Position numbers and translations under genes: made by a program
The notes under the pieces: generated by a model
Seen by the model: the letters and a program-made list of their open reading frames with translations, nothing else
The model's database searches: none
What the model was told of the DNA's origin: nothing
Shown: positions 3,276 through 20,280 of the stretch, piece by piece
Position numbering within the stretch: the first letter of the stretch is position 1
Layout: each line of letters begins with the position of its first letter
Origin: Candidatus Methylomirabilota bacterium
GTDB lineage: Bacteria > Methylomirabilota > Methylomirabilia > Rokubacteriales > CSP1-6
DNA length: 32,075 nucleotides
Reading direction: 5' to 3'
NCBI GenBank assembly: GCA_036001065.1
Contig: DASYUQ010000114.1
Location: 1 to 32,075 of the forward strand

Positions 3276-3283
3276 AAGGAGGA
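3276..3283 (+). promoter_or_regulatory. Strong ribosome binding site for the UGA-containing gene
   Basis: AAGGAGGA lies 8 nt before the ATG at 3292. It is among the best Shine-Dalgarno matches in the window. This argues that the short frame, which meets TGA at codon 40, is really translated. Confidence 0.7.
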
Positions 3284-3291
3284 CGAACGGC

Positions 3292-3552
3292 ATGGCGGTA
3301 CTCGAAGAGAAGGTCATCGCGAGCTGGAAATACAAGAAGGGCGCGCTCGATCCCAAGACGGCGTCGCTCTGCTACCTGGCCGCCAATCTGGCGGTGGGCA
3401 ACACCCACTGAGCGAAGCGCGACCTGGCAGGCGCCAGGGCAGCGGGAGCGACGGAGGACGAGGTGCGGGAGGCCATCAGCTTCGCCATTCGCGCCAACGC
3501 GGCGAAGACGCACGCGGACATCCTCAAGGTGTGGACCGATGGCGGACATTAG
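3292..3552 (+). CDS. Candidate selenoprotein, AhpD-like/CMD family (in-frame UGA at codon 40)
   Basis: Read with the TGA at 3409-3411 as selenocysteine, this is an 86-residue AhpD/carboxymuconolactone decarboxylase-like protein. Around the UGA it reads LAVGNTH-U-AKRDLAGARAAGATEDEV, then EAISFAIRANAAKTHADIL. In AhpD the redox centre is Cys-x-His-Cys (CSHC in M. tuberculosis AhpD). Here the aligned residues are N37-T-H39-U40, so Sec replaces the second, peroxidatic-type Cys, the His is kept and the first Cys is Asn. The frame stays open and family-like for 46 codons after the TGA and ends in TAG. A strong ribosome site precedes it and a SECIS-like hairpin follows the UGA. It overlaps the next gene by 14 nt. 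Predicted role: thiol/peroxide redox chemistry. Alternative: a nonsense-mutated pseudogene. No selA/B/C/D is in the window. Confidence 0.72.
3412..3438 (+). promoter_or_regulatory. SECIS-like hairpin directly after the in-frame UGA
   Basis: Perfect 6-bp stem CCTGGC (3423-3428) / GCCAGG (3433-3438) closing the 4-nt loop AGGC. The loop begins 17 nt after the UGA and has a G at its second position. Bacterial SECIS elements are described as a short stem with a small apical loop about 16-37 nt after UGA and a G among the first two loop bases, so the geometry fits. GC-rich coding DNA can form such stems by chance, so this is supportive rather than decisive. Confidence 0.6.
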
Positions 3553-3850
3553 GCTGACGGCGGCTTTCTCCACCGTCCCCGGCGGGGAGCAGGAGGACAT
3601 CAAGCGCGTGATCGTGGAGACAGTCGAGCAGCTCGCCCGCGAGGACGGCGGCTTCAAGGCGGCCAAGCTGGTCTTCACCGAGTCCGACGAGCGGTGCGGG
3701 CTCACCGCCGAGTTGGACGGCGTCAAGAAAGAGGGCGTGCCGCTCCAGCTCGATCTCGAGCAGCTCGAGGACGCCAAGACGTCGGCCGGCGCCCGCGCCC
3801 AGCTCAAGGAGGCGCTGCGCCTCTACTTCCGCAAGGTGCTGGGGAAGTGA
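3539..3850 (+). CDS. Small conserved-looking protein of unknown function
   Basis: A 103-residue soluble, charged protein with no signal peptide or membrane segment. I do not recognise a family. It opens with a beta strand (IRLTAAFSTV), then an amphipathic helix (QEDIKRVIVETVEQLARE), then strands around KLVFTESDERCGLTAELDG and a basic C-terminal helix. The ATG lies 14 nt inside the end of the AhpD-like gene, and its stop overlaps the start of the methyltransferase (GTGA), so all three genes are probably co-translated. If the UGA upstream is not read through, ribosomes would terminate 127 nt before this start. Function unknown. Confidence 0.7.
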   Translation: MADIRLTAAFSTVPGGEQEDIKRVIVETVEQLAREDGGFKAAKLVFTESDERCGLTAELDGVKKEGVPLQLDLEQLEDAKTSAGARAQLKEALRLYFRKVLGK

Positions 3851-7656: not shown

Positions 7657-8156
7657 CCGGGCTCCGAGCCGTCCTCGGGCAGCGCCGCGTCGAGGATACG
7701 GGGCAGGCGGGTGACGGCCGAGAGGCCGTGGATGCCCGCCACCATCTCCCCCTTGAGGTCCACGACGACGGTGTAGGGCGTGCCCTTGAAGCCGAACTGG
7801 TTACCGATCGTGAGCCTGAGATCGAGGGCCACCGGGTACGTGACCTTCTGGGCGCGCACGAAGCGACGGGTGTCGGCGACGGTGTCCTGGACGTGCAGCG
7901 CCAGGAACTCGACGCCGCGCCGACGGTAGCGCTGGACCAGGCGCCCGAAGGCGGCCGACTCCCTCGCGCAGGGCTTGCAGTAGGAAGCCTGGAAGCGCAG
8001 GACGAGGACCTTCTTGCCCAGCAGGTCGCGCGAGTCGATTGTGCGCGCGGAGTCGAGCAGCTTCACCCGGAAGCCGGGCGCCGCCGGCGCGCCGTTGGCG
8101 GCGGTGGAGACGAGCGCGAGGAGACCCGCCAGGGCAGCCGGGAGTACGCCGCGCAC
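7653..8156 (-). CDS. TlpA/ResA-like exported thioredoxin-fold protein
   Basis: A 167-residue secreted thiol protein. The GTG start gives MRGVLPAALAGLLALVSTAANG, a Sec signal peptide, followed by an AhpC/TlpA fold: KKVLVLRFQASYCKPCARES contains the CxxC redox pair (YCKPC), then RGVEFLALHVQDT, and GTPYTVVVD carries the cis-Pro loop. It probably works in the periplasm as a disulfide reductase or in cytochrome/thiol maturation. Its last codons overlap the Nramp gene end tail to tail by 4 nt. It is divergent from the FAD/FeS gene with only 18 bp between starts. Confidence 0.85.
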   Translation of the reverse strand: MRGVLPAALAGLLALVSTAANGAPAAPGFRVKLLDSARTIDSRDLLGKKVLVLRFQASYCKPCARESAAFGRLVQRYRRRGVEFLALHVQDTVADTRRFVRAQKVTYPVALDLRLTIGNQFGFKGTPYTVVVDLKGEMVAGIHGLSAVTRLPRILDAALPEDGSEPG

Positions 8157-19765: not shown

Positions 19766-20280
19766 CAGGTTATGTCGGAGGGGGCCTCGACGGCCCCCTC
19801 CGAGGCCTCCCCCAAAACAGGATTGCGCCGGCCAAGCCGGCGCTCGGGTTCGTCCGACGCCAGACGCGCGGCGATCATCCAGCGGGCGGCGACGCGGCCG
19901 CTTTCGGTGGTGATGCCCTCGCGGAGCGGGCTGGGCATCAGGCTAATCGGAGGGGGCCTGGGCGGCCCCCTCCGAGGCCTCCCCCAGAACAGGATTGCGC
20001 CGGCCAAGCCGGCGCTCGGGATCGGCCGACGCCAGACGCGCGGCGATCATCCAGCGGGCGGCGAGACGACCGAATTGGGTGGCGATGCCCTCGCGGAGCA
20101 GGGTGCACCTCGGTCAGTCGGAGGGGGTCTCGGCAGCCCCCTCCGAGACCTCCCAGAGAACAGGATTGCGCCGGCCAAGCCGGCGCTCGGGTTCGTCCGG
20201 CGCCAGACGGGCGGCGATCGGCCAGCGGGCGAGGAGGCGGCCGCTCTCCGTGTGGGCACCTTCGCGGAGCAGGGCGAGCA
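19763..20280 (-). repeat. Three tandem ~172-bp copies of the cofC 3' end with palindromic hairpins
   Basis: Copies begin near 19763, 19936 and 20108; the shared GGAGGGGG block starts at 19777, 19949 and 20120, giving periods of 172 and 171 bp. Each carries hairpin 2 (GGAGGGGGCC/GGCCCCCTCC, slightly altered in copy 3), a linker, hairpin 1 (GCGCCGGC, CAA, GCCGGCGC) and about 95 bp that on the minus strand reads REG-x-x-TESGR...ARW...ERRLGRRNPVL. The copy at 20108 is the real 3' end of cofC. The other two fill the 348-bp gap between cofC and cofE and contain no independent gene. The two extra copies are more similar to each other than to the cofC copy. Confidence 0.8.

Follow-up and report, generated by a model that had tools for sequence, protein, structure and literature searches.

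Contig DASYUQ010000114.1 of assembly GCA_036001065.1, from a Candidatus Methylomirabilota bacterium of the Rokubacteriales, carries a short gene that very probably encodes a selenoprotein. We analysed positions 1 to 32,075 of the contig (the window, 32,075 nt), in which the gene occupies the features listed in Table 1. On the sequence evidence, we put the probability that its in-frame TGA is read as selenocysteine (Sec, U) at about 0.9 to 0.95, and we conclude that the gene encodes a genuine selenoprotein with the motif N-T-H-U, from a branch of the CMD superfamily that is restricted to one clade. The original prediction, made from the letters of the window, had described a frame with a strong ribosome binding site that reaches TGA at codon 40 and continues for 46 more codons to TAG, and these coordinates were reproduced. 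It had also placed the UGA at the column of the second active-site Cys of AhpD, with the adjacent His kept and the first Cys replaced by Asn, and our alignments agree. Its suggestion that the gene is translated with Sec is supported by the conserved TGA, selection on the frame, a downstream hairpin, and the Sec machinery of relatives.

The predicted readthrough product, MAVLEEKVIASWKYKKGALDPKTASLCYLAANLAVGNTHUAKRDLAGARAAGATEDEVREAISFAIRANAAKTHADILKVWTDGGH, matches the Pfam CMD domain (PF02627) with 43.3 bits against a cutoff of 23, over residues 14-70, a match that spans the TGA. A long frame that stays open beyond a TGA carries little weight alone in GC-rich DNA. An Rfam scan of the locus matched nothing meaningful.

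Table 1. Features of the candidate selenoprotein locus (positions in the window)
Feature	Position	Strand	Remarks
Ribosome binding site AAGGAGG	3276-3282	+	9-nt spacer to ATG; read from sequence
Recoded gene, predicted CMD-fold selenoprotein	3292-3552	+	86 residues: 39 aa + Sec + 46 aa
Start codon and terminal stop of the recoded gene	ATG 3292; TAG 3550-3552	+
Cys27 codon	3370-3372	+	sole other Cys of the protein; invariant in 30 homologues
Putative active-site motif N37-T38-H39-U40	3400-3411	+	aligns with Cys-x-x-Cys of AhpD-core proteins
In-frame TGA, codon 40 (candidate Sec codon)	3409-3411	+	invariant in every homologue spanning the column
Putative bacterial-type SECIS hairpin CCTGGC-AGGC-GCCAGG	3423-3438	+	GG at loop positions 2-3
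Conserved 103-aa gene	3539-3850	+	its first 14 nt, from the ATG, lie within the recoded frame

Conservation of the TGA and selection on the frame

Within the phylum, 95 genomes were searched and 64 gave a match, and all full-length close matches (83-99% identity) have the TGA; the gene is conserved in about 40 Rokubacteria genomes. Thirty loci from about two dozen genera were aligned in detail. The TGA and the His at -1 were present in 30/30, while the residue at -3 was Asn in 29/30 and Thr in the remaining one. When 84,980 species genomes were scanned, 34 loci were returned, every one from Rokubacteria/Methylomirabilota, with TGA in 33/33 of those spanning the column; the patterns used reach close relatives only, and distant NxxU or NxxC members elsewhere are possible. 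The scan and the phylum set are not independent because many genomes are common to both. No relative was detected in the viral contigs scanned, and no match was detected in the plasmids scanned.

TAA, TAG, or a sense codon never replaces the TGA in any homologue. At the Sec column, close homologues always have TGA and distant ones have Cys or TGA, a pattern that favours recoding. Because the TGA was found in many independent genomes, a sequencing error is excluded. Across all pairs, the ratio of nonsynonymous to synonymous differences (pN/pS) was 0.162 upstream of the TGA and 0.139 downstream, and the downstream half is therefore a protein under selection.

Genomes of genus g9 (G009, G029, and G077-G083) and genome G003 had no full-length NTHU match, showing either none or a weak one of about 34% identity; selA was present in those relatives that were checked for it. 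Because these genomes are without a full-length NTHU protein, the recoded gene is dispensable in parts of the family.

A SECIS-like hairpin largely frozen at synonymous sites

The published model of the bacterial Sec insertion sequence (SECIS) places the apical loop 16-37 nt after the UGA, with G in the first two loop positions, a stem of 4-16 bp, and a minimum free energy of -7.5 or lower. The hairpin following codon 40 agrees with this model, having its loop 17 nt after the UGA, an A-G-G-C loop, a 6-bp stem, and a free energy of -17 kcal/mol. A 6-bp stem and a 4-nt loop with G at loop position 2 had been correctly predicted, but the stem had been said to start 17 nt after the UGA; it starts at 11 nt, and the loop is what lies at 17 nt.

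The stem codons +4 (GAC), +5 (CTG), +8 (GCC), and +9 (AGG) are identical in 30/30 aligned loci, and AGG is otherwise rare in the gene, accounting for 5/106 of its other Arg codons. We considered the 35 columns in which the amino acid is conserved and the codon is four- or six-fold degenerate; only three use a single codon, all of them within the hairpin, with a chance of about 0.0015 under random placement. Variation in the hairpin is restricted to loop positions 1 and 4, which change mainly together, as A..T or G..C, with A..C in the window.

Selenocysteine machinery and other TGA/hairpin pairs

Among 60 relatives, SelA was detected in 57 and SelB exceeded its cutoff in 55. The original prediction had made its case depend in part on the sel genes of the genome itself, and here the outcome is mixed. 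On the positive side, the genome has selD, and relatives have a tRNA-Sec gene (UCA anticodon), selA, and selB in one cluster (G001, from the same genus, and G004), but selA, selB, and selC are absent from the metagenome-assembled genome (MAG) to which the window belongs, where the locus would fall at a contig end. The selD gene has an in-frame TGA of its own (YASCAGU) with hairpin-forming sequence downstream; therefore selD itself would need Sec insertion.

The same genome carries a second AhpD-core selenoprotein candidate (G000:C82:29336-29554; L101:5334-5630). This CTSU paralogue resembles the NTHU protein in sequence (45% identity), in having TGA at the same column, and in its SECIS-like GG-loop hairpin, and differs from it in keeping Cys at -3 (C-T-S-U) and in its wider distribution in the class. 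Its relatives retain the TGA throughout the class and have a strong GG-loop hairpin. In the SelD and CTSU hairpins, the first or second loop position is G. With 51.6 bits against a cutoff of 110 on NF041047, the CTSU paralogue, like the NTHU protein, is without a dedicated model.

Three observations weigh against reading the TGA as Sec. First, the single-sequence fold of the hairpin is only mildly better than that of shuffled sequences (z -1.7 to -2.2), and because this score is modest, conservation must carry the argument. Second, the stem is invariant and shows no compensatory change, so covariation is unusable as evidence. Third, selA, selB, and tRNA-Sec were not found in the 4.46-Mb assembly, in which a search with RF01852 returned ordinary tRNAs only, below cutoff. 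An assembly gap accounts best for this absence, because contig C80 of the MAG breaks beside the locus and ileS is missing as well. In a DNA comparison, C80 runs colinear with a contig of G001 for 3.6 kb at 91% identity and breaks off at base 7824, within 140 bases of where the match stops; the tRNA-Sec position would follow about 0.9 kb further on. The essential ileS gene, which lies in the same G001 block, did not score over cutoff in the genome of the window and is present in 14/14 control genomes.

We consider it very improbable that the gene is a selenoprotein gene in relatives that is now decaying in a species that has lost the Sec machinery. The missing selA, selB, and tRNA-Sec would fit such a loss, but C80 ends just before the block that holds them, the gene and its hairpin are intact, and the resident selD retains its TGA. 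Just as improbable, although the genome as a whole was not searched for a suppressor tRNA, is that such a tRNA or an altered code makes the TGA specify Cys, Trp, or some other standard amino acid; Cys would restore the match to the closest Cys homologues, but the neighbouring helicase, BamE-like, 103-aa, and ROK genes use TGA as a stop, relatives have the UCA-anticodon tRNA-Sec beside selA/selB, and SelD, the 45%-identical paralogue, and the NTHU gene each pair a TGA with a SECIS-like hairpin. Least probable of all is an ordinary stop after a 39-aa peptide, with a downstream frame that survives as a relic or has stayed open by chance, for which the missing machinery of the MAG and the tendency of GC-rich frames to remain open could be cited, but purifying selection is equal on both sides of the TGA, the CMD match crosses it, homologues never replace it with TAA, TAG, or a sense codon, and synonymous sites in the hairpin are frozen.

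Predicted fold and proposed function

The AlphaFold2 model of the protein has a mean predicted local distance difference test score of 85.5, with blocks within residues 21-80 above 90, and contains helices at 21-34, 38-50, and 55-83, placing Sec40 near the start of the second. Foldseek consistently returned CMD proteins, with TTHA0727 (PDB 2CWQ) at the top, although with weak E-values. In phmmer alignments, N-T-H-U was paired with C-S-Y-C of 2OUW and S-E-A-C of 2CWQ. The sequence evidence supports recoding, conservation, membership in the CMD fold, and loss of the -3 Cys.

In the mechanism that we propose, SelB and tRNA-Sec, steered by the hairpin, would decode the TGA as Sec to give an all-helical CMD-superfamily protein with Sec40 close to the N-terminus of the second active-site helix, at the position of the AhpD nucleophile Cys133. 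The selenol of Sec40 may serve as catalytic nucleophile in a redox reaction of the thiol/peroxide type. Because there is no Cys at -3, we propose that oxidised Sec would probably be resolved by an external thiol, such as a low-molecular-weight thiol, a thioredoxin-like protein, or a partner protein. We regard this redox role of a single selenol with external resolution as an evenly balanced proposition.

In Mycobacterium tuberculosis AhpD, the relay consists of Glu118, Cys130, His132, Cys133, and His137 (PMC3141380), and it is Cys133 that reacts with AhpC (PMC6626918). Two findings tell against the proposed redox role: three of these five relay positions are changed in the NTHU protein, and its nearest solved relative, TTHA0727, in which Ser replaces Cys130, was judged to be without peroxidase activity (PMC3141380). 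It is possible, but in our view unlikely, that Sec40 is a nucleophile or ligand in another reaction instead of a centre for peroxide/disulfide redox chemistry. Decarboxylases belong to the CMD superfamily, as do proteins with no assigned function, the AhpD relay positions are not conserved here, and TTHA0727, which shows the same loss, has no assigned function.

A further and still less likely alternative is that Cys27 resolves the oxidised Sec in an internal selenenylsulfide pair, which would leave the protein a two-residue AhpD-type reductase. The invariance of this residue (30/30), its standing as the only other Cys, and its absence from the equivalent place in the solved homologues 2OUW and 2CWQ would suit such a pair, but counting positions puts Cys27 at AhpD residue 120, two past Glu118, where it probably points away from the active site.

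Genomic neighbourhood

Upstream of the recoded gene lie genes for a Ski2-like DEAD/DSHCT helicase and for a BamE-like lipoprotein, the latter with a sub-cutoff match to BamE, and downstream lie the 103-aa gene, a small methyltransferase gene, YdjC, ROK, and Nramp. The neighbour counts given here come from targeted tblastn; a clustering of neighbours was discarded, being dominated by overlapping shadow open reading frames. The 103-aa gene was found in 19/20 relatives and starts 14 nt before the stop of the recoded frame in 10/20, as it does in the window, and its product has no Pfam or NCBIfam match. The 14-nt overlap suggests translational coupling of the two genes. This start inside the recoded frame counts in favour of recoding, as does the homology to CMD proteins that have Cys at the Sec column. 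A gamma-glutamyltranspeptidase-like gene lies upstream in the same direction in 13/20 relatives by motif search, one of them confirmed by Pfam; carriers include L115, L119, and about 10 other relatives, and the window is without the gene at that place. The neighbouring genes suggest a thiol context. We tentatively picture a CMD-fold selenoprotein confined to Rokubacteria that uses a single selenol, without a resolving thiol at -3, in a reaction other than the peroxide or disulfide reduction of AhpD, and whose translation may be coupled to that of an uncharacterised 103-aa partner, a composite that we hold as doubtful.

Elsewhere in the window, a palindromic GC-rich repeat occurs in three copies at 19766-20189, about 172 nt apart (GGAGGGGGCCT...GGCCCCCTCCGAGG...ACAGGATTGCGCCGGCCAAGCCGGCGCTCGGG). 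Similar copies occur on dozens of contigs of the same genome and, in the same genus, between selA and selB.

Significance and comparison with known proteins

With the NTHU protein, the Rokubacteria, an uncultured lineage of soil and groundwater, gain a well-supported selenoprotein subfamily. A Methylomirabilota MAG in which 63 selenoprotein genes are predicted is cited in a 2026 review. Ordinary gene callers would cut the gene at codon 40. Its Sec is invariably kept while the usual partner is Asn, offering a direct test of why Sec is needed without the usual resolving thiol. The locus also calls for caution in surveys of the presence or absence of selenium use, as one contig break can strip the whole Sec machinery from a "complete" MAG.

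Sec has been known in AhpD/CMD-type proteins since 2005, and the AhpD/CMD families found in the selenoprotein tables of 2008 and 2026 are CxxU only. The caution in the original prediction that a Sec centre without a -3 Cys partner would be an unusual variant stands. No paper describing an NTHU protein was found in the freely readable literature searched. The CMD-like/AhpD-like selenoproteins of marine metagenomes (PF02627/COG2128) likewise have Sec in the CMD superfamily and differ in being CxxU. Among NCBIfam models, none covers the NTHU protein; the best match is to the GSU3128 family (NF041047, distant AhpD homolog), which has Sec at the same column and a similar length, but the score is 44.5 bits against a cutoff of 110, and NxxU replaces CxxU.

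The description of the protein as AhpD-like holds at the level of the fold and fails for AhpD chemistry. M. tuberculosis AhpD shares the CMD fold, has Cys133 at the position of the Sec, and has His132 at that of the retained His. However, Asn occupies the position of Cys130 in its Cys130-Ser-His-Cys133 motif, and by position counting two further relay positions are altered, with an invariant Asp at the His137 column and S/F/Y/A at the Glu118 column. The NTHU protein thus has neither Cys-x-x-Cys nor the full proton relay of Glu118, His132, and His137, and the name AhpD peroxidase is inappropriate because Cys130 is replaced by Asn and His137 by Asp. The best solved match is instead TTHA0727 of Thermus thermophilus, a CMD family protein that was the top Foldseek and second phmmer match, at about 28% identity. 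It shares SW-Y...KGALD-KT and a turn with the second Cys only (SEAC versus NTHU), and it differs in having Cys instead of Sec, Ser instead of Asn at -3, and no equivalent of Cys27. By fold match and alignment, then, the NTHU protein falls with TTHA0727 in having no Cys at the Cys130 position.
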